Shown here one piece after another: positions 4,035-24,577 of a stretch of DNA of 64,000 bases. The stretch comes from Nitrospira sp. (GTDB taxonomy: Bacteria > Nitrospirota > Nitrospiria > Nitrospirales > Nitrospiraceae). The stretch is from the NCBI GenBank assembly GCA_024998595.1, contig JACOEK010000003.1:372001-436000 (forward strand). The letters run 5' to 3'. The notes beneath the pieces are model-generated. The model was not told the DNA's origin. It saw nothing but the letters and a program-made list of their open reading frames with translations, and ran no database searches. The position numbers and the translations under genes were made by a program. The stretch's first letter is position 1, and the number at the start of each line of letters is the position of its first letter.

Positions 4035-6977
4035 TCAGTTCCCCGTCAAATTCAAGTGAACCCGAATCTGCTGCTGCTCGGATGCCGCCAGTTCGGACTC
4101 GACCAGAAATACCCGCTCATCAGGTAAGTGACCCTGCTCGATCAGATGTTCACGGATGGCTTTCGCGCGCTCTTGCGCCAGTGCCCGCAGTTCAGAATCC
4201 TCCACCGTCATCGCCGGGAATAGCTGCTGCCGGAGTTCCTCGGCTGTCAATACGCGCTCAACGGCTTTCCCGCCCGGAAGGTCTTCCCGCTTCATCGGCT
4301 GCTTGCCCAACTTCTCCGCATACAGGTCACCGAGCAGTTCGAATTCACGCGAGGGAGAGGGCACCGCCTGCAGGTTCTTCGTCCCCCCCTGGGTAAATCG
4401 CCGTTGAACCTGGGCCGCAATTTTTTGCAACGCGAGAGCCTGGCGATCCCGTGCCGGGTCGGCAACTCCGGCCACGTCCACTCGTAGCGCCGGTCGTTCC
4501 TGCAATGCCTTGGCAATAGACTCCAGCTTCCGTTGCTCTGCAGTCTCAAGGACCTCGCTTCCCGCCTGAAATTCCACAAATTGCAATTCTTCCCCGCCGC
4601 CGCCAACGAGTCCACCCAGAGCCGAAAATGGAGAGGTGGCCACCTTGGTCAACAGATTCACGAGGGCATTCAGGACCACCCGGCCGTATCGAAAATCCGG
4701 TTCGTTGAGATCCCCTCGCACCGGCATATCGATGTCGATCCGGCCCCGTCGGTCCTTCAACAAACCCACGGCCAGACGAACCGGCAGAGTGGTTGCATCC
4801 GGGCTGTCGGTCTTGTCTCCAAACGTCAACTGATCGACCAGCAGCTTATTCTCCCCGATCAATTGCTTCTTGGAGATCTGATAGGTGAGATCCAGCGATA
4901 GTTTTCCCTTGGTGATCGGAAAGCCGACGAACTTGCCCGCATAGGGCGATACCGGCGTCAAATCCACCCCTTGGAACAAAAACGTCAGATGTGTAAAGGC
5001 GTCCTCGCTCAGCGGATTGATCTGGCCCTTGATCTTGAGCGGCGCCACCTCGTCCACCTTACCCGTCAAGGCCACCTCGGCCTTGGCCATCTGCCGGGAG
5101 GACAGGCCCTTGATCGTGCCGGTAAGATCGGTGATTCCGGTCGTAACGGTCGGGACGATCGATTCATCGACGAACGTGGCGGACATGTTCGTTAACCGGA
5201 CGACGGCGATCTCAACGGGCGTAGGGGCCGTGGGCTTCTTGGGCGCATCCGATTCCACCGGTTTCGATGCGGGTGCCTGCGTGGCATCAGGAGAACGGAG
5301 CACGCGCGAAAGATTGGTGGTCCCGTCTTTGTCGGTGACCAAACGCACTGCCGGATCCCGTAACGCAATCTCTCCAATCTTGACCGTGGTCGGCGCCACG
5401 TCCAGCGCCATCTTACTCAGGCTGAGGGCTGCCCATCCAAGAAACTCCTTCGCCGAGACCCGGTCGGCCAGGTGAAGATTGGTGAGTCCTGCCTGACCTC
5501 GGTACTGTACCATTGGCTCCGCTTCGGGGCGACTTCGATAGACGAGTTCTCCATCCAAAGCCAATTCGCCATCCCTGATTTCAAGCTGTACCATCCGATC
5601 CAGATAGGGTTGAAACGGCCGGAGTCCGACATGATCCAGTTTGAGCGAGAGCGCAGCTTGAAGGGAATCGAGACGCAGCGTGCCCCGGCTCTCAACTGTG
5701 CCTTGTTGATTGAGCCGAAAACCAGCCGTCACCGGAAGTGTCCCCTTAAACGGCACCTGCAAGTCGTTCAAGGTCACGTGGAGGTCATCGATGACCAGTT
5801 CGACCGGCGTCGCAAGACTTCTGTCCTCAAACTCCACCTGAGTGTTTGCGACCGCAACCGTCTGGACGTCCACCTTCCAGGGTGGTCCTGGGTCCGGAGC
5901 AGGGGGCTCCGGCTGCATCGAGACCTCCGAAGGTGCGGCAACCGGTGCAAAGAGCGGCGTAAAATTGACCACGCCATCCCGTCCAAGCCAGGCGCGAATC
6001 TCCGCTCCGGTCAAGGCCGCGGTGCCGATTCCCAGCTGCCGTTTCGACAGGTCCATGGTGATGCCATCAATCCCGAAAGACGGCACCGTCAGCACCGGGT
6101 CAGGACTCCCCGCTTCCGACAGCCGGAAATCCGCTAATTGAATCTTGCCCTCTGTAATCCGCAGATTGACCGGGGTGAGATGCGTGTCGAAGTGATACTG
6201 GGCATCGGCCGACAGTATCCCGCGCTGGATGTCGAACCGGAAGCGGTCACGAAGGCTCGGCCAGAACGTATTCAGGTCGACATGCGACAAGGAGACATGC
6301 CCGTCCGATTCGAGGGGATCGAGGTGCAATGTGCCCTCCCAGGCCAACACTTCCCCCTCCCCGAACTCCGCCGTGAACGCGTAGGCATTTTCACCGCCTC
6401 GCCGGCTGCTGAAGTTTCGGACGGAAATTTCAATCGGCACCACATCGATAGTGACTGGCCTTTTTTTTGAATCGTCCCGATATTCGATCACGCCACGCTG
6501 GATGCTCAACAATCGAATGTCCACGGACGGCATCGAGGCCTTGTCGGATTTTTCCGCCGGCGGGAGCTCGGGCCGCTCCGCTCCTTCAGGAGCGCGAGGT
6601 ACCAGGCCAAGAAGATTGAGCTTCCCGTCCGCCTGCAAATGCACGAGTCCAAACGGGAGCGTCAGACGGATCTCGTCGAACAGATATGATGAACGGACCA
6701 GCGAGGTCGCTTCAAAATTCAGAAACAGTTCCTGAAACCCGAGCATGGGCGTGTGGTCCGGCTCCTGTATCTCAAACCCGATGAGCTCCACGGAGAAGGT
6801 AAACGGATTGAGCCGGATAGCTTCAAGCAGGACGGGATGTCTCAAACGTTCAGACAAGGCCGGAATGCCGTAGGTTTTCACCGCATAAGGAACGACGAGA
6901 AAACCTAATAGCGCATAGAACGCCAACAGGCCACCGACTATGGGGAGGAGAATGCGATACCTGGAAAGGAAAGTCAT
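4035..6977 (-). CDS. DUF748 (AsmA-like) envelope protein
   Basis: About 980 residues. A single N-terminal membrane helix (ILLPIVGGLLAFYALLGFLVVPYAV) is followed by a long beta-rich region with the repeated pattern of DUF748/AsmA-like proteins (for example FPITKGKLSLDLTYQISKKQL). The end is rich in Arg, Glu and Ala helices (AQERAKAIREHLIEQGHL). Proteins of this superfamily bridge the inner and outer membranes and are linked to lipid transport and envelope integrity. That role is inferred from the family, not seen here. The frame is open 14 codons further with a TTG start, but the ATG at 6977 places the signal anchor at the extreme N-terminus. The gene is convergent with the pentapeptide gene. 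Confidence 0.85.
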   Translation of the reverse strand: MTFLSRYRILLPIVGGLLAFYALLGFLVVPYAVKTYGIPALSERLRHPVLLEAIRLNPFTFSVELIGFEIQEPDHTPMLGFQELFLNFEATSLVRSSYLFDEIRLTLPFGLVHLQADGKLNLLGLVPRAPEGAERPELPPAEKSDKASMPSVDIRLLSIQRGVIEYRDDSKKRPVTIDVVPIEISVRNFSSRRGGENAYAFTAEFGEGEVLAWEGTLHLDPLESDGHVSLSHVDLNTFWPSLRDRFRFDIQRGILSADAQYHFDTHLTPVNLRITEGKIQLADFRLSEAGSPDPVLTVPSFGIDGITMDLSKRQLGIGTAALTGAEIRAWLGRDGVVNFTPLFAPVAAPSEVSMQPEPPAPDPGPPWKVDVQTVAVANTQVEFEDRSLATPVELVIDDLHVTLNDLQVPFKGTLPVTAGFRLNQQGTVESRGTLRLDSLQAALSLKLDHVGLRPFQPYLDRMVQLEIRDGELALDGELVYRSRPEAEPMVQYRGQAGLTNLHLADRVSAKEFLGWAALSLSKMALDVAPTTVKIGEIALRDPAVRLVTDKDGTTNLSRVLRSPDATQAPASKPVESDAPKKPTAPTPVEIAVVRLTNMSATFVDESIVPTVTTGITDLTGTIKGLSSRQMAKAEVALTGKVDEVAPLKIKGQINPLSEDAFTHLTFLFQGVDLTPVSPYAGKFVGFPITKGKLSLDLTYQISKKQLIGENKLLVDQLTFGDKTDSPDATTLPVRLAVGLLKDRRGRIDIDMPVRGDLNEPDFRYGRVVLNALVNLLTKVATSPFSALGGLVGGGGEELQFVEFQAGSEVLETAEQRKLESIAKALQERPALRVDVAGVADPARDRQALALQKIAAQVQRRFTQGGTKNLQAVPSPSREFELLGDLYAEKLGKQPMKREDLPGGKAVERVLTAEELRQQLFPAMTVEDSELRALAQERAKAIREHLIEQGHLPDERVFLVESELAASEQQQIRVHLNLTGN

Positions 6978-14974: not shown

Positions 14975-15420
14975 ATTCGAGATTGGGAAATGGTCGCCTT
15001 TAGGATCCAAGCCCGATTGCGGCGGTCTGAACAGTTTCGGCTGCAATGTGAACTAGTGGATCTGGAAACAAGGTGCTCGACTTACCCATGCCTAGGGGCG
15101 GAAAGAGTCGTTTGCGGCATGCCGTGGCCTCTCACCGTGCCCTCGTCGGAATAGGTCTCTACAGCACCAAGGAGATCTTAGCCCACATAGACATGCGACA
15201 ATGCAACGCTACGCTCATCTCACGCCGAGCTTCCTACAAGACTCCGCAAAAAAGGGGACTTAATTGCCTTAGGGAAGGGGGAAAAGGGAACTGGGAAAAG
15301 GAAACTGGGAGTAACACCGTGAGTACCCAATCGACCGAAGTAAGGAGCTTTGCACAATCCTTGAATTTTCTGGTGCGCCCGGTTGGAATCGAACCAACGA
15401 CCCTCAGCTTAGAAGGCCAA
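14975..15420 (+). pseudogene. Tyrosine integrase relic (older element)
   Basis: Three blocks match the intact integrase at 23345-24550 in order. The first, WEMVAFRIQARLRRSEQFRL, matches WKMVAFAIETGLRRSEQFNL and holds the first catalytic arginine. The second, VLDLPMPRGGKSR, matches VLNLPMPKGSKSR. The third, LRHAVASHRALVGIGLYSTK, matches LRHTAATRRVLSGASLYGVQ and includes the HxxR region. There is a frameshift near 15075 and an internal deletion of roughly 55 codons after KSR. The tail again reads VRPVGIEPTTLSLEG because it is encoded by the tRNA-derived att sequence. It is non-functional. Confidence 0.85.
15371..15417. repeat. att site: 47-bp perfect copy of the tRNA-Arg 3' part (left end of young element)
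   Basis: This segment is identical over 47 bp to 24501-24547, the 3' half of tRNA-Arg including the CCA end, the T arm and part of the anticodon arm. The two copies are direct repeats enclosing about 9.1 kb with the integrase at the right end, the arrangement left by site-specific integration at a tRNA gene. It is also the right end of the older element to the left. Confidence 0.9.
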
Positions 15421-15639: not shown

Positions 15640-16593
15640 TTATGAGAAGGATTGGTGACGAGCTACGACTCTCTTGTACCTTTTCTTATAAAGCCGAGCC
15701 GCATCTGGCCACGCATCAGAAAGGATTTTCCAAATATAGGCCAGCTTACTACCTCGATCGAATTTGCATAGATCGTTGATCTCTGTAGCTATAGCGACAG
15801 AAATGACCAGTGCCAACATATAATTGTTCGACTTAATTTGATGTAAGATCATCTCCTTGTCTTGGTCTGTTTTTTGTAACAGCAGCTTCGAAAACATTCG
15901 CGCTATACCCGCCCCGCTCATATGAACATCTTGTGAGAGCTCGCTGTAAAACAGGGTGTAAAAATAGTCGAGAAAGCCATGGGGCCGCAGTTTTCGCTTT
16001 CCTCGCCTTTTCTGATTCAAGAACTGACCTAACGTAGGCCACCACTTAATCTGTTGGTAATTCTCGGCAAGCCTTTTACTGATTCCATATGCAATTCTCA
16101 TTTGCTCCAGGGCCTTTGTCTGTGCTTGGACCTGGGAAGAAAACGTCTTCTTTGAGCCTTTTTCATTGGCTAAGACTTCTAAGGATTCCCGTAGCTCCCT
16201 CCAACCGGAGTGGTGATACAACTTGCAGTATAGTCTGGGATTTTGTCGGATAATTATGAGAGTCGACAGCATATCTGCCAAAAATCTCACATTGGGAGAT
16301 ACACAGATACAAAACTCAGGTTTTCGAAAAGGGTCGGGGGGAGTGTCCGCAAGAAGGTATCTTATCGCGTCTAAATTACTCTTTACTGCATATGCCACCA
16401 CCAACAGAAGAGGGCCAAAGCCTTTTACTTGCCTAATATTCTCCGGACATCGCCGCTCGATCAAATTTTTAAGTGCGATTAGTACATTGTCGACTTCTGA
16501 GATTAACTCGCGATTTATTAGTTTATTGCGAGGTAACGAGCAAAACTCTAGCTCTCCTACTGAGTGGCCCTTTACTTTGGTCTTATCAACCAT
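15640..16593 (-). CDS. Island protein of unknown function, DUF5677-like
   Basis: 317 residues, alpha-helical by composition, with no signal or membrane anchor. The segment LFYSELSQDVHMSGAGIARM is reminiscent of the Y-x-x-LS-x-x-VH core of DUF5677-type proteins found in mobile and defence loci. I cannot confirm membership. The C-terminus is basic (ARLYKKRYKRVVARHQ). The gene follows the large NTPase gene on the same strand after 141 bp. Codon use is more AT-rich than the chromosome, consistent with recent transfer. A functional partnership with the NTPase is inferred from position and strand only. Confidence 0.6.
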   Translation of the reverse strand: MVDKTKVKGHSVGELEFCSLPRNKLINRELISEVDNVLIALKNLIERRCPENIRQVKGFGPLLLVVAYAVKSNLDAIRYLLADTPPDPFRKPEFCICVSPNVRFLADMLSTLIIIRQNPRLYCKLYHHSGWRELRESLEVLANEKGSKKTFSSQVQAQTKALEQMRIAYGISKRLAENYQQIKWWPTLGQFLNQKRRGKRKLRPHGFLDYFYTLFYSELSQDVHMSGAGIARMFSKLLLQKTDQDKEMILHQIKSNNYMLALVISVAIATEINDLCKFDRGSKLAYIWKILSDAWPDAARLYKKRYKRVVARHQSFS

Positions 16594-16734
16594 TCGTCAG
16601 TTGTGCGCTTATGTCGAATTTGTTTTCTTTGCAAGGAATTCCTCTGCTTCAGAGGTGAGACCCCGCAAAGACCTAGCCCTTGTGCGCGAAGGCCATAGCA
16701 TCGCAGGCAGGATTCCTACCCCCCACTCCATCCC

Positions 16735-19700
16735 TCACGCTTCAGTGGGGGCACAATCAATCACGACTACTAAAATCAAGTCTCGCTCGAAATGCGTGAG
16801 TGTTTGGAGGAGGGCCACTTCGAGATCGCGAGGGGTTTGAGGCGCTGGCGTGCCACTTGGAGACGTAGGGCATGAGGCAACTTTATTCCCAAACCAAAGA
16901 ACTACATATATGCCACGACCTGCGGTTCCTGGATCACGCGAGTAGAGGCGCTTGAGTTGATCACGCGGGGCCGTCCAGAGATCGGGGTGATAATGTCGTT
17001 TTACCTCCACCGGGAGATTTAGAGGCCCAGCAATAGCCTTTATATCGGCCCGCTTATCTTCTGCATAGTGACCTTCCGGTTCCGCCGCTACGCCGACTTG
17101 GAGCAATTGTAGGCGAAGATGATCCAGGAGGCGATCGCGGCAATCGTTCTCAGGGCGTGGCCCTGTTGGCCTCCCGTAGCCATCCACATTCCACATAGCT
17201 TTCCAACCATCAGTGGGCCCATTTCGCAATTCCTCACGAAGGACCTCTAACTGTGAGACGACCAAGGCCTGAAGGTCGGCAGCATTTGCTGGCCGCCCCT
17301 TGTTTAATGTCTCAATGACCTGGGTGACCGAAGGATATTTGAAAGCAAGTTCACGACGCTGGCGTCCTTGAGTCGCGAGGACATGCGCGATTTCTATGCG
17401 CCAAGGCGCTAGAGTCGGGCTATCGTGTAACCGGTGGAGTGCCTCGGAAGCTTGAGAAGAAAGATCATTACCTAGTCGATAGATCAAAGAGCGGACTGAA
17501 CTAGCGGCTTCTCCCCGACTGTGGAGTCCCAACCAACCACTCTGGGCAAGGTCTGGAGGTTGGAAGATAGGGCCTGTCATCTGTATCACGGAAGCAAGTG
17601 CAACTGACGAAAGACAGTATTGGACTTCAGTGGCAATTCCAAGAGATGGAGAAATGAAGCCTAATAACCTAGCTGCTTGCTCTTCCCTCCCACTAATCTG
17701 GGCTGCAAGCCGAGCCTTAACTCTTTCGGGGTCAAGAATAAATGTGGCGGCGCACCATAACGTCTTGTTTTCGTCGCTGAGGAGAGTCGGGCCATTCAGG
17801 ATTTCGTCAGAGAGCGTCACGAACTCGGTAGGGTCAGAATTGCGAGTTGCAGCGCGAAGCAATAGCTTCAAGTTGTCTTCCAGGCAATTAGGAAACTCTT
17901 TCAGGAGAGTAAGCGAAACGAGTCGTGCGACTCCCTTCATTCTTTCCTCATGAGCAAGATCGTACAACCCAGGAATATGCTGCAAATTTCGAGCGAGATG
18001 TGGACGCCAGTAAGAAACTAAGGCACTGGCCGATATCTCAGGCATTGATTCGATAAGCAGGTTCACCCATTCGCGCGATCGTTCGGTTAAGTTGGCATAG
18101 TGAAATACCAGTCCGGACTGCAACGTGGTCTTCGCAAGTGCAAGTATATCGAAGAGAGACTTACCAGCGAGCACGTCCAAACCGGCTAGAACTGGGAAGC
18201 CTATAGAGTATTCTCTCCCATTAGATTCAAGTTCACCGATCATTTGAGGTGATGGGAGATCAGGGAGCTGCAAAGTAGCCAGAAAACCTTCCAGAGTAGC
18301 AGCAGCAATTTCCGGATTTGTGAATGTTGTCAAGCGATTGCTTGGGGGCGATTCACGCGCTACGTCGTAAAAAAGTCCAAAGTAGACCTTTGCCAAATGC
18401 ACTAATGGACCTACCGACGCCGCTGACCGAATACCCTCAATTTGCTCTGTTAGTTGTTTTATGCGGATAGCTCTCTGGGTTTCGTCTTTTTGTTCTCTCA
18501 TCAGTCGCCGCTCGGCATCTTCTCTCCGCCAAGGTGGAATATCCCAGCAAAGCTCCGACCGTAACTGCTCACCGAAGGCGGGATTGCGGATGACAAATTC
18601 GAAAAACTCGTCAAGAGTTGGAGCATCTTCCCTTTGAAGATACGTACGGCCATGTACCGATGTGCGAAAAATCAGTTCCGCTCGTCCAGGCTCAAGCTCA
18701 GTTTCTAGCTGTTGCAGCAACCACTTATGGAAGCCCACTGGGGGAGCAATGTTAAAAAGATGCTGCCAGAAGCCGTGTAACTCATGTCTCGGATTTTTAA
18801 GTTCAGAGATAGATAGCCAATACAGGAAGAGTTGCTGAACTACGGCGGGATGAGACCTCAACCAGTCTTGTATACTCTCCAATTCGTCCTTATCAGCCAC
18901 GGGATGCCCATACTCGTCCAGAACTCTGCCGAACCAAGCATAAAGCTCAGAGGCTGGTGTGGTTTCTCCCTGATAACGGAGTATCTGTAGGATCAGATTT
19001 CCGAAAAAACGCCGCCAGTTCAAGCGAGAAGTTCGGTCTACCAACTTCGATGCATCTACTGCCGACAGAAGCAGCGGAAGATCCTCGGACTTCGTTAGGC
19101 GCACTAGATCATACGCAATGAACATTGTATACGAGTTGATATGATGTTCGACCTGCTCCACGAGATACTGCCCTATCTCACGAGGACCAATAACTCCTGG
19201 ATATAAGGCGCATAAAACTTGCCCTCGCAACCGATGATTCTGATCAAGCACTTGCCCCTTGTGAATTTCATCGAGGAGCTTTCGAAGAACTAAATGGTCG
19301 TTCGGACTAATGCGCTGCAGGGCTGACAACGCAGCGGCGCGTATTCCTTCCCCGCTTGTGTTGTCACGCACAATTTTGAGCAGAGCAGAACCAAGTTCAG
19401 GCAATGGAGGCCCATACTCTATAGCATCCAGAATACAGGTAAGCAGCTGAGGAGGCTCAGTTTTCTCAGCCAGGATACTTTCAAAAATTGGCACCATATC
19501 CTTTGAGGCCAGCCCCCCGAATGGTTCATCTGACCAATTCTCTGTGCGGAAACCAGGGTTTGATATTGCGAGAGCGCGAAGACTATCGATGAGCATCTGC
19601 TTACTGGATGTAGAAAGCACGGAGACATCACCGTACAGAATGACACCGAGCGGGTCTCTGTGAATCAAGGTTGACGCATGGTCTTCATACAAACACGCGA

Positions 19701-20733
19701 GCCAGGCATAAATTCCACGTAACTCAGCTAGAGTTCCTCCATCATATCCTGTCAGAAGCGACAAGATGCGTTTCAACGGAAGACCGGCACGAAGACGAGC
19801 GACTATGAACTGAGCAGCTAGGTACTCAGCGATCGTTCGGTGGACCGGTGTGAAGCGGCCATGTCCGTCGGTTCGAAAGGCCCGCCGTCGTATAGCTGAG
19901 ACTAACGCGTCTCGATCCTCGCCCAGATTCAAAATGTGCGGGTAGTCCCCATCAGCATCCTCGGTTAAAATCGCAAACCCCTTTGTTCCCCCGCACAAGT
20001 GAACTGCACACAAATATCCTGCAGCATTGAGAAGCTTCACAATTGGCAGAGACTCAACATTTCCGTATACATGTTCGTCGTTTCTCTCCTGGAGTAAACG
20101 CGCGCACGCCTGTTGAAATAATTCGGCACGTGTGGCCGGCCATACTCCGCTTCTAACCTCCGCAATAATAAGCTGCAGAGTTTGTGGGTTTCGAAGAAGC
20201 GTATCGATTCCACGTCGCTGAGCCTGGACTAGGAATTCGGCCGGATCTCTTAACTCACCCCCAGCGATGCTGATGATATCCTCATCAGAGAGAGGTTCTA
20301 AGCTTAACACCACAACTTTACCGTCCGAAGAAACCGCCCGCAGCCGCTCTGCCTCAATCTTTCCGTACCAATCTGCTGCTCGGCATGACAATCGGTATTG
20401 AGGGCGATTAAGATCATCTAACTTTCTACGGACCCGGTCCAATACTCCTCTCCCATCCTCAGTCTTCGTCCGTTGTTCATCCAAACCATCTAAATAAAGT
20501 ATTTTTCCTCTCCATTGATCTTCACGCAACGCTAAAAAGTCGCGAATGGGAACAAACACAGCATTAGGTTCTGTTGCCGCACTCTGGCGAAATATCGTTG
20601 TCTTACCCGATCCTGGATCGCCGAGAACTACGATGGCGGAGTGTGAGTAGTATTGTTGAAGCGGCTTGGGAAGACTTCTGGAATCATCTCCTTCCGCCTG
20701 CACTTGTGTAAAGAACCGTTCAACGATGGGCAT
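16735..20733 (-). CDS. STAND/NACHT-type NTPase with C-terminal PD-(D/E)XK-like nuclease motif
   Basis: 1332 residues. Near the N-terminus is a P-loop NTPase: Walker A GDPGSGKTT at residues 38-46 and Walker B ILYLDGLDE at 78-86, the NACHT/STAND pattern. A long helical region (about 280-1200) with many L-x-x-L segments resembles HEAT-like sensor repeats. The last 118 residues contain KRADI (Asp1230), PVEVK (Glu1243 and Lys1245), then QLKRLY and GIYVVLWFG, the D-Xn-E-x-K plus Q-x-x-x-Y layout of PD-(D/E)XK nucleases. The architecture suits an immune receptor that senses phage and cuts DNA, though this is inferred. The ATG at 20733 is chosen. A GTG 12 codons upstream is possible. Confidence 0.75.
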   Translation of the reverse strand: MPIVERFFTQVQAEGDDSRSLPKPLQQYYSHSAIVVLGDPGSGKTTIFRQSAATEPNAVFVPIRDFLALREDQWRGKILYLDGLDEQRTKTEDGRGVLDRVRRKLDDLNRPQYRLSCRAADWYGKIEAERLRAVSSDGKVVVLSLEPLSDEDIISIAGGELRDPAEFLVQAQRRGIDTLLRNPQTLQLIIAEVRSGVWPATRAELFQQACARLLQERNDEHVYGNVESLPIVKLLNAAGYLCAVHLCGGTKGFAILTEDADGDYPHILNLGEDRDALVSAIRRRAFRTDGHGRFTPVHRTIAEYLAAQFIVARLRAGLPLKRILSLLTGYDGGTLAELRGIYAWLACLYEDHASTLIHRDPLGVILYGDVSVLSTSSKQMLIDSLRALAISNPGFRTENWSDEPFGGLASKDMVPIFESILAEKTEPPQLLTCILDAIEYGPPLPELGSALLKIVRDNTSGEGIRAAALSALQRISPNDHLVLRKLLDEIHKGQVLDQNHRLRGQVLCALYPGVIGPREIGQYLVEQVEHHINSYTMFIAYDLVRLTKSEDLPLLLSAVDASKLVDRTSRLNWRRFFGNLILQILRYQGETTPASELYAWFGRVLDEYGHPVADKDELESIQDWLRSHPAVVQQLFLYWLSISELKNPRHELHGFWQHLFNIAPPVGFHKWLLQQLETELEPGRAELIFRTSVHGRTYLQREDAPTLDEFFEFVIRNPAFGEQLRSELCWDIPPWRREDAERRLMREQKDETQRAIRIKQLTEQIEGIRSAASVGPLVHLAKVYFGLFYDVARESPPSNRLTTFTNPEIAAATLEGFLATLQLPDLPSPQMIGELESNGREYSIGFPVLAGLDVLAGKSLFDILALAKTTLQSGLVFHYANLTERSREWVNLLIESMPEISASALVSYWRPHLARNLQHIPGLYDLAHEERMKGVARLVSLTLLKEFPNCLEDNLKLLLRAATRNSDPTEFVTLSDEILNGPTLLSDENKTLWCAATFILDPERVKARLAAQISGREEQAARLLGFISPSLGIATEVQYCLSSVALASVIQMTGPIFQPPDLAQSGWLGLHSRGEAASSVRSLIYRLGNDLSSQASEALHRLHDSPTLAPWRIEIAHVLATQGRQRRELAFKYPSVTQVIETLNKGRPANAADLQALVVSQLEVLREELRNGPTDGWKAMWNVDGYGRPTGPRPENDCRDRLLDHLRLQLLQVGVAAEPEGHYAEDKRADIKAIAGPLNLPVEVKRHYHPDLWTAPRDQLKRLYSRDPGTAGRGIYVVLWFGNKVASCPTSPSGTPAPQTPRDLEVALLQTLTHFERDLILVVVIDCAPTEA

Positions 20734-21324
20734 AACCGGTCCCCAAAGGAGACAAGAATCTCCTCCCACAACAACAAACCGGTTGTAGCCCCCCCGGTAG
20801 CACTCTCAATAGAAACGGTAAGTGCACGGAGGAGACGTGATGAAAAGCAGCAGCTTGAATCCCAAATAGGAGTTGACTGTCCATACGGGTAAATCGCTCC
20901 CGTGTGAAATATAACGCCGTTAAGATCAAATTTCGAGGGTTCCTACTGGGGAGGATTACAGGTCTCCCCCAAAACCCCTTTCGTCGCAAACAAATTTCCG
21001 ACCGCAAAATGATTCTGAACGAGAACCAAAGCAACGTTCTACTCTGACCATATGAATCAAGTGAAGCGGGGGCTGCGCCCCCGATCCCCCCGGCCGTCCG
21101 GTCCAGTGGTCCGGAACGGCCGGGCGGCCTCGTTGGGCGGAGTATTCGCGTGACCAAGCTCCCATGGTTTCAGTATTCCTGTTCTCTTCCCTGCGTCTGT
21201 AATCAACGATCAAACAGAGAGGCGGCCAAGCTAACGCATCGCCGCCTTGTAATGAAGGAGCATTGTTCCCTCTCACCCGTAGCGGATAGTGGACGGGTGA
21301 CAGGGAGAAATTGATTAGAGCGTG
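20734..21324. other. Non-coding region between the replication-like cassette and the NTPase gene, with strong hairpins
   Basis: About 590 bp without a supported gene. It contains a GGGGGC/GCCCCC hairpin with a 3-base loop (21068-21082) and, next to it, a long hairpin with arms CCCGGCCGT and ACGGCCGGG plus inner pairing (21089-21124). They may terminate the zinc-protein/Rep transcript, or form the element's replication origin. The NTPase promoter should lie at the left end. Confidence 0.5.
21068..21124. other. Twin GC-rich hairpins, candidate origin or terminator
   Basis: Two adjacent inverted repeats: a 6-bp stem with TGC loop, then a 9-bp outer stem with four to five further inner pairs and a one-base bulge. 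They lie 200 bp downstream of the replication-like cassette. Rolling-circle origins and strong terminators can both look like this, and nothing here decides between them. Confidence 0.45.
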
Positions 21325-21569: not shown

Positions 21570-22283
21570 TCACACCTCCTGATAGACCAGCCCTTTCCCA
21601 AGTACCAGTTGCAAAATCGTGCCGCTGAACCAAATAGGATGCCCTGATAGCAGATCCTCCCAGGTCTTGATGAACACAATCCGAGGGATTTCGATCTCGC
21701 CCCTGATCCGCCGATAGGCATTCCTGGTGGACCATTGATGCCGCATTTCTTCCCACAGCCTGCTGATGGGGAAGCCAAGAGACCGCTTCCAGGACCAACA
21801 CATATTCACGTAGCCGCATTGATCCTGGACATATTGGCTGATGACATAGCGGCTGAGACGGTTCCGGGAACGATTGCTGGGCTGATAGGCCTTGATCCAG
21901 ACAACTGGAGCCCCATGGAGGGTGTGCCATTGTGAGGAGAGCCATTCCTGGGAGATCCAGAACCGTCGGGCGCGTTCCCCATCCGGCACCCGCCAGGCCC
22001 AGAAGATGTGGAGCACCCCGTGCCCTTCTTCCGTCCGAACCTGGTAATACTCCAGCCCCTGAAAGCCTAGCTGCCGTTCGATCCGTTGACGCAGTTGCTT
22101 GTGATGGTAGGTCAGCTTCTCGGCATCCCCGCCTTCTGCCGTAGACAGGGTGACCCAGAGCACTTGGAACTGATGACATTCCCAGAACCACAGGAGTGAT
22201 CGAACGCGGTGATAGCCCCGTTTCTGCTTTCTGGTCCATTCGCCGGCGACGGGCTCACGCCGGAACTCCTTCCAGCGGCTCAT
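21570..22283 (-). CDS. Candidate replication-initiator-like protein of the island
   Basis: 237 residues, basic and Trp/Tyr-rich. The segment EEGHGVLHIFWAW and the later RYVISQYV resemble the histidine motif and tyrosine motif of rolling-circle Rep relatives (families with G-x-G-V-x-H and Y-x-x-x-Y). The exact HUH triad is not present (the histidines are H88 and H92, spaced by three), so the call is tentative. It overlaps the excisionase-like gene by 4 bp and is followed 2 bp later by the zinc-protein gene, forming a tight three-gene operon. It may replicate the excised circle. An alternative is a phage-type hypothetical protein. Confidence 0.5.
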   Translation of the reverse strand: MSRWKEFRREPVAGEWTRKQKRGYHRVRSLLWFWECHQFQVLWVTLSTAEGGDAEKLTYHHKQLRQRIERQLGFQGLEYYQVRTEEGHGVLHIFWAWRVPDGERARRFWISQEWLSSQWHTLHGAPVVWIKAYQPSNRSRNRLSRYVISQYVQDQCGYVNMCWSWKRSLGFPISRLWEEMRHQWSTRNAYRRIRGEIEIPRIVFIKTWEDLLSGHPIWFSGTILQLVLGKGLVYQEV

Positions 22284-22489
22284 CGCGCACCTTCCGGCTG
22301 GGGAATCACCGGCCTCAGGCCCGCAGCCAGAATCCGCTCCAATTCCTCAATGGGAATCCGCACGGCGCGTACCGACGGCTTCACATAGGCGATCTGCCGT
22401 CTCAGGATGTACTTCCTGATCGTGCTTTCCTTGAGCCCTAATCGGTTGGCCGCCTCTCGAATGGTGATCAATTTTGTACTGGGGACCAT
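22280..22489 (-). CDS. Excisionase/MerR-type helix-turn-helix protein
   Basis: 69 residues: LITIREAANRLGLKESTIRK continuing YILRRQIAYVKPSVRAVRIPIEELERIL. This is the winged-helix layout of excisionase-family DNA-binding domains (helix-turn-helix, then a K-x-G/x-x-x-x-R-(I/V)-P wing and a terminal helix). In integrating elements such proteins direct excision and regulate neighbouring genes. It begins the three-gene cassette and overlaps the next gene by 4 bp. AAGGAGG lies before the ATG. It is divergent from the 22693-23370 gene, leaving a shared promoter region of about 200 bp. Confidence 0.8.
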   Translation of the reverse strand: MVPSTKLITIREAANRLGLKESTIRKYILRRQIAYVKPSVRAVRIPIEELERILAAGLRPVIPQPEGAR

Positions 22490-22692: not shown

Positions 22693-23344
22693 ATGAGCGC
22701 ACAGGAGCAAGCCGAGCATGAGTTCCAAGTGGAGTATGAGAAGGCGATGGAGCGTATCCAGACGATGCCAGATGGCGCCGTGGGGTGGATGCTCCGGTTT
22801 TTACAGACCGACCTGGAGGCCTTGACGCCCACGGAATGGACGCTGGTGGCGTTTGAGGTCGCGGCCTTTGTCGATGAGACGGGGGAGCGCTATGGCGGGA
22901 TGGTGGCCCCGGAGAGTGGCTGGAGCGTGGAAGGCGTCCCCAACGCGAAGAACTATCAGACGATACCCAGTCGCAAAGAAGCCCTGGACATTCAGGCTAC
23001 CGTCCTGGAGCAGTTAGAGCTCTATTGGCATGAAGGCTACACCACCTTCACGTTTCCGCAGATGACGCTGGTCGCGGTGTCGCCGGGTGAGGGCTCTGAC
23101 GAGGCTGGCACGGTCATCGTGAGCGCGAAACGCAAGGCGAAGGAGTTTGAATACCGCTTTGTCCACCTGCTGGCCCAAACGGGGGACTACATTCGGCGCT
23201 GTCCGGAATGCGCCACGATCTTTTTCGCGATCCGACGCGACCAGCTGTACTGCCAGCCCCGCTGTCAAAACCGCGTCGCGGCGAGAAAATGGCGCGACAG
23301 CCAGAAGACTGACCACAAGACCGCGAGACGAAAGGAGGACGGCC

Positions 23345-23370
<26 letters not shown>
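22693..23370 (+). CDS. CGNR-like zinc-finger protein
   Basis: 225 residues. An acidic helical N-terminal domain (residues 1-160) is followed by IRRCPECATIFFAIRRDQLY and CQPRCQNRVAARKWR. The latter is a CxxC ... YCQxxCQNR zinc-binding module like the C-terminal domain of CGNR zinc-finger proteins, which are putative transcription regulators. A Lys/Arg-rich tail follows. The gene ends 26 bp inside the integrase gene, so the two are co-transcribed and probably translationally coupled. The start at 22693 has GGAGCCGAAGGC before it, a moderate site. Confidence 0.75.

Positions 23371-24577
<1,207 letters not shown>

Follow-up and report, generated by a model that had tools for sequence, protein, structure and literature searches.

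An EruA-type NACHT NTPase with a predicted C-terminal nuclease, carried by a tRNA-Arg-targeted element

The window, that is the whole stretch of 64,000 nucleotides that was analysed, belongs to a genome of 4.2 Mb and contains on its minus strand a gene (16735–20733) that very probably encodes an EruA-type single-protein antiphage NLR. The gene resides on an element targeted to a tRNA-Arg gene, where a smaller neighbour would be a second, independent cargo. The large protein matches over its whole length (profile positions 14–1317 of 1318) the NCBIfam equivalog model NF058535, "NACHT domain-containing antiphage protein EruA", at 1012.5 bits, the cut-off being 1000. A profile search with the whole protein had been proposed in the initial annotation, which considered a possible undescribed system. 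As NF058535 already covers the protein, this suggestion is ruled out, and on sequence grounds the large gene is assigned to a catalogued family.

The name of the family is in keeping with the defence role that had been proposed. The antiphage activity of the window protein is ascribed from this name given by NCBI, since the paper behind it was not found in a non-exhaustive search of CC-licensed PubMed Central. The DefensePredictor paper (PMC13092281) contains neither 'Eru' nor 'Hyo'. The name EruA is also borne by a SlyA-family regulator of E. coli (PMC12839154).

The large protein and its two predicted domains

The minus-strand open reading frame is intact from 16735 to 20769, where a GTG would start a protein of 1344 residues. 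Because a GGGGA stretch is found upstream of the ATG at 20733, this ATG is taken as the likely start, and yields the 1332 residues announced initially. The Walker A motif GDPGSGKTT (20596–20622) and the Walker B motif ILYLDGLDE (20476–20502) are present as described. The P-loop begins at residue 38 of 1332 and the Walker lysine is Lys44, instead of Lys45 as had been written. The positions of the C-terminal Asp1230, Glu1243 and Lys1245 were right in the numbering from the ATG. They become 1242, 1255 and 1257 when numbered from the GTG, which adds 12 and is used for the conserved residues below. The putative nuclease site has the form D-x12-E-x-K.

Conservation was assessed in an alignment of 58 rows, consisting of the window copy, 53 of 62 EruA loci from named genomes (at least 1150 residues, E < 1e-40) and four plasmid rows. 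The Walker A residues G53, G55 and K56 and the Walker B residues D97 and E98 are found in 55 of the 58 rows, the other three having a gap at these positions. In the C-terminal part, E1232, D1242, E1255, K1257, Q1271 and Y1276 are invariant in 58/58, and for the catalytic residues this invariance is, within the alignment, more than chance. The 62 loci were collected with two C-terminal seed patterns, one of which contains PEGHY, so that part of the conservation seen at Glu1232 reflects this selection; Asp1242, Glu1255, Lys1257 and Gln1271 are absent from both. Many of the 62 loci come from metagenome bins whose isolate codes are related, and cannot be treated as independent.

The N-terminal region (residues 13–560 in GTG numbering, 19090–20733) was modelled with 51 sequences, with a mean pLDDT of 88.8 and a pTM of 0.86. 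When this model was compared with the PDB using Foldseek, the best matches were to NLRC4 (E 1.5e-8, query TM 0.49) and NLRP3, and the bacterial EfAvs5 filament was retrieved at E 3.3e-5. Given these matches, the N-terminal part is predicted to be an NLR-type NACHT module, which bears out the STAND/NACHT NTPase recognized at first.

The C-terminal domain (16756–17151) was modelled within the final 220 residues, using 54 sequences (pLDDT 87.4, pTM 0.80). The model displays an alpha-beta core with the aspartate and the ExK on adjacent strands, which is the arrangement of PD-(D/E)XK nucleases. Holliday junction resolvases came top in Foldseek, with Can-type CRISPR nucleases and EcoRV lower among the top 15, and the best E-value was 2.6e-3. 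Re-scoring of the same matches with VIA gave modest Z-scores of 8.2 for Can2, 7.7 for EcoT38I, 7.7 for BglII and 6.6 for McrC, the best of which is on the borderline of the range where the tool is trustworthy. Judged from their titles, most of the 50 matches listed are PD-(D/E)XK nucleases. From these modest fold scores, together with the invariance of D1242, E1255, K1257 and Q1271, the C-terminal domain is predicted to be a PD-(D/E)XK nuclease. The structure prediction that had been proposed thus agrees with the nuclease motif first noticed, and the layout with the NTPase first and the nuclease last is upheld.

Pfam provided no NACHT or nuclease match above its cut-offs for the large protein, the AAA and STAND matches being sub-threshold only. 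A weak match to mad8 (E 0.005) was obtained with PADLOC. A sequence search against solved structures returned nothing useful for the large protein or for its 317-residue neighbour.

Genes adjoining EruA-type genes

The second gene (15640–16593) is present as annotated, on the same strand and 141 bases downstream of the large gene. Its product of 317 residues weakly resembles Pfam DUF5677 (22.9 bits against a gathering cut-off of 27.1, E 9.8e-5). It had been presented as a partner of the large gene. In such a two-gene system, the large NLR would be the effector and the small protein a sensor, regulator or antitoxin, as could be expected from two genes that lie so close together on one element and make up all its obvious cargo. 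The neighbourhoods of the homologues speak against such a system, as regards the small protein. The ORFs of at least 60 residues yielded no relative of it, either in the 62 named-genome EruA loci or in the four plasmid loci. At least 1 kb of sequence was available upstream in 54 of the 62 loci, downstream in 56, and on both sides in 48. Across all the loci scanned, these included, the only matches are the window's own copy and that of genome G082. With E 0.01 as the limit, no relative was retrieved from 72,556 plasmid records, and a viral scan gave a single match, 24 residues long.

The small protein occurs in 3 of 395 genomes of the phylum, counting that of the window, and EruA-like proteins (E ≤ 1e-30) in 18. 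The two other genomes that encode it are G082 and G008. G082 also has the closest EruA relative of the window copy. This is the same protein as on Nitrospirae contig JAKAHZ010000010.1, from which the host of the window is taken to be Nitrospirota-type, and its genus presumably Nitrospira. This co-occurrence slightly favours a link between the two genes, but they are on different contigs in G082. There the small gene is flanked by a HEPN gene and an ORF running off the contig, and the ORF downstream of EruA is another one. EruA was not found in G008, where, however, the contig extends just 282 bases ahead of the small gene. A further echo of the large-plus-small layout is found in an element related to that of the window, where a gene for a Upx-like protein (L144:4633-8352) adjoins one for a DUF5677 protein (L144:8540-9277), but the latter protein and the small protein of the window are not significantly similar by BLAST (E 0.50). 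The evidence apart from the co-occurrence thus stands against a link. A conserved partnership is not supported by the EruA neighbourhoods, a two-gene system comprising the small protein is improbable, and the small gene is more likely a separate, independent cargo.

Two relatives of the small protein contain an R-x6-H sequence, namely RELSQDSH in L030 and RSLSQDHH in L186. The window copy reads SELSQDVH at this place and, if this is a HEPN-type motif, is without the arginine.

Another gene recurs beside EruA relatives. In 44 of 50 named-genome EruA loci that could be assessed, the gene immediately upstream, in the same orientation, is an AAA_14-DUF4143 gene, its domain content determined for two copies. 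The 50 are the 62 minus four fragments and eight with less than 1 kb upstream. One of these eight (L062) shows a partial AAA_14-DUF4143 gene. The pairing is recorded for L047–L104 and exemplified by L085 (Methylovulum) and L032, where the AAA_14-DUF4143 gene is at 4725-6008 and 4281-5546, respectively. In 38 of the 44 pairs, the ORFs overlap by 1–25 bases when called from the first start. The P-loop residues of GPRQxGKT, the Asp-Glu pair D111 and E112, and a C-terminal D...ExK (D358, E371, K373) are kept in 43/43 aligned copies. Three copies scanned with NCBIfam had no match above cut-off. All five copies scanned with PADLOC were identified as the defence candidate PDC-S01 (E 1.5e-130 or better), which rules out that the gene is uncatalogued. 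No paper on its pairing with EruA was found in CC-licensed PubMed Central by a non-exhaustive search. The window is without the upstream gene, as the best match in tblastn with one such protein had an E of 0.069, and no decayed copy was seen upstream of the large gene by this means. The four plasmid EruA relatives are likewise solo.

The distribution of the pairing was examined on a tree of the 58 rows built with a quick method. The paired label requires four changes, compared to a mean of 12.7 when shuffled, and two changes if one drops the three rows whose upstream side is unseen. All 44 paired rows are inside a clade of 51 rows. The window copy is outside this clade and groups with a Nitrospirae protein (L046; SH-aLRT 94, not starred), the upstream side of which is cut off. 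One EruA relative, in locus L178 (G396:C85), is interrupted by three stop codons and is apparently decayed.

This position in the tree raises the question of whether the window protein is EruA proper, or belongs to a separate subfamily of a wider EruA family with another trigger or substrate. The identity of the window copy to any other row of the tree is at most 41%, and it exceeds the NF058535 cut-off by just 12.5 bits, other full-length relatives scoring below, such as that of L002 at 972.1. Yet the curated cut-off is passed by a match over the full length, and the invariant residues are the same as in the other 57 rows. A separate subfamily is considered unlikely, while deserving some weight, and the assignment to EruA is retained.

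The upstream AAA_14-DUF4143 gene and EruA possibly constitute one two-gene system. The analysis suggests that PDC-S01, catalogued as a single-gene candidate, and EruA often share one operon. We tentatively propose, with slightly less than even confidence, that EruA-type NLR nucleases occur either alone, as the window copy does, or coupled to an AAA_14-DUF4143 ATPase encoded upstream; that PDC-S01 and EruA would together make up one NLR system in at least eight phyla; and that the solo copy would be spread by a family of tRNA-targeted elements, genus-wide in distribution, in which defence genes often occupy the slot.

The tRNA-targeted element and its family

The element in the window is delimited by a repeat of 47 bases. 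The distal attachment repeat (15371–15417) is identical to the end of a tRNA-Arg(tct) gene on the minus strand (24501–24577), of which positions 24501–24547 are the integrase-side attachment repeat. The plus-strand ORF at 23147–24550 encodes a tyrosine integrase (PF00589, 2.3e-30; phrog_1, 2.8e-67), which probably starts near 23345. The tRNA-borne element announced initially is thus substantiated. Three further backbone genes are found: that of a 225-residue protein with weak, sub-threshold C-terminal matches to zinc-finger and HNH-type domains (22693–23370, plus strand), that of a 69-residue HTH_17 excisionase-like protein (22280–22489, minus strand; PF12728, 4.7e-9; phrog_66), and that of a 237-residue protein for which no Pfam or PHROGs family was found (21570–22283, minus strand). 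The large and the small gene are the only obvious cargo, much as had been claimed, and the remainder is backbone common to sibling elements.

The backbone recurs at three further places in the same genome (G000 C6, C9 and C14). The sibling loci (L138–L172) contain elements of roughly 6–11 kb that have the backbone in common and differ in the tRNA gene targeted and in the cargo, which occupies a swappable slot. The 237-residue protein is encoded in 20 of 25 genomes of the same genus, with up to six copies per genome, and in 0 of 16 others. The median identity over 465 pairs of 31 full-length copies, which had been preselected at 95% identity or more to that of the window with seven at 81–86% left out, is 98.3% for the protein and 88.9% for the DNA, with medians of 71 silent and 4 replacement codons. 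These differences between protein and DNA suggest that the protein is under strong purifying selection. A repeat of at least 40 bases passing a tRNA-like filter was found for 21 of 39 backbone copies. In 20 of these 21 elements, the site has a called gene for tRNA-Arg, tRNA-Cys or tRNA-Gln.

The cargo differs among the 21 elements. When 14 cargo proteins were scanned singly with PADLOC at 1e-5, 11 matched: 10/10 of those chosen as defence-like, a rate biased by picking the most defence-like proteins, and 1/4 of the further ones. The matches of the ten include Upx, type IIG, DRT RT_UG14, SIR2-type PDC-S65, PDC-S06, PDC-M41A, Old/Gabija-like and others. One of the ten defence-like proteins originates from L043, outside the 21 elements. 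In this locus, a backbone copy adjoins a protein of 1019 residues (L043:5654-8713), which has a RelA/SpoT domain at its N-terminus. By the PADLOC scans, 11 of the 21 elements hold a defence-type protein, including that of the window and also L143, whose inclusion is due solely to its having the same cargo listing as L142. The cargo of L162 (two proteins) and of L140 (one) had no PADLOC match. A pooled scan of 45 cargo proteins matched 179 families, where families and not proteins are counted. With PADLOC, 0/10 chromosomal proteins of the window matched. Going by these comparisons, the island is a member of a family of elements that is genus-wide, targets tRNA genes and varies in its cargo, which is often defence-like.

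Relatives of EruA are also found on conjugative, mobilizable and non-mobilizable plasmids. Two of the four fetched plasmid relatives are near annotated defence-type genes, one near ppl and an Abi-family gene, the other near a restriction endonuclease and an AbiEii-family gene; no named defence gene was found near the other two. Residence on mobile elements and plasmids would also suit a protein that serves its element against competing plasmids or elements and not against phages, as an NLR nuclease could attack any incoming DNA. However, the gene is outside the conserved backbone, siblings hold other cargo in the same slot, and NF058535 is named as an antiphage family. Such a role is therefore judged very improbable, and an antiphage NLR is the preferred reading.

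Proposed mode of action and comparison with known systems

By analogy with NLRs, the N-terminal NACHT-type NTPase and the long helical middle would hold the protein inactive until a component made by the phage binds. Binding would trigger ATP-dependent assembly, which would switch on the C-terminal PD-(D/E)XK nuclease. The active nuclease may cut phage DNA, host DNA or both, and thereby stop the infection. The gene would move as cargo of the tRNA-Arg-targeted integrative element, siblings of which bear other, often defence-like cargo. The window thus offers a mobile and clearly bounded case of an NLR whose predicted nuclease is C-terminal, in a Nitrospirota-type host, and the element family, with its compact, swappable slot in one genus, may be mined for defence genes.

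Avs and bNACHT proteins have in common with the window protein an NLR-like STAND/NACHT NTPase, and EfAvs5 is among the fold matches. In Avs proteins, the effector is N-terminal, ahead of the STAND NTPase, whereas in the window protein the NTPase opens the protein and the predicted effector is C-terminal. Avs is ruled out by this layout, with a P-loop from residue 38, and by the lack of any Avs match among the four element proteins scanned with PADLOC. Lamassu consists of LmuA and the SMC-like LmuB. It is also ruled out, as the likeness to LmuA (PDLC03853) is weak and restricted to residues 1087–1261 (E 3.9e-6), and no further Lamassu model was matched among the same four proteins. The sister model HyoA (NF058534) matches most of the window protein (residues 146–1295), though more weakly, at 139.3 bits and far under its cut-off of 1200. 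The closest likeness is to EruA, with which the window protein shares a full-length profile match that passes the equivalog cut-off, but narrowly.
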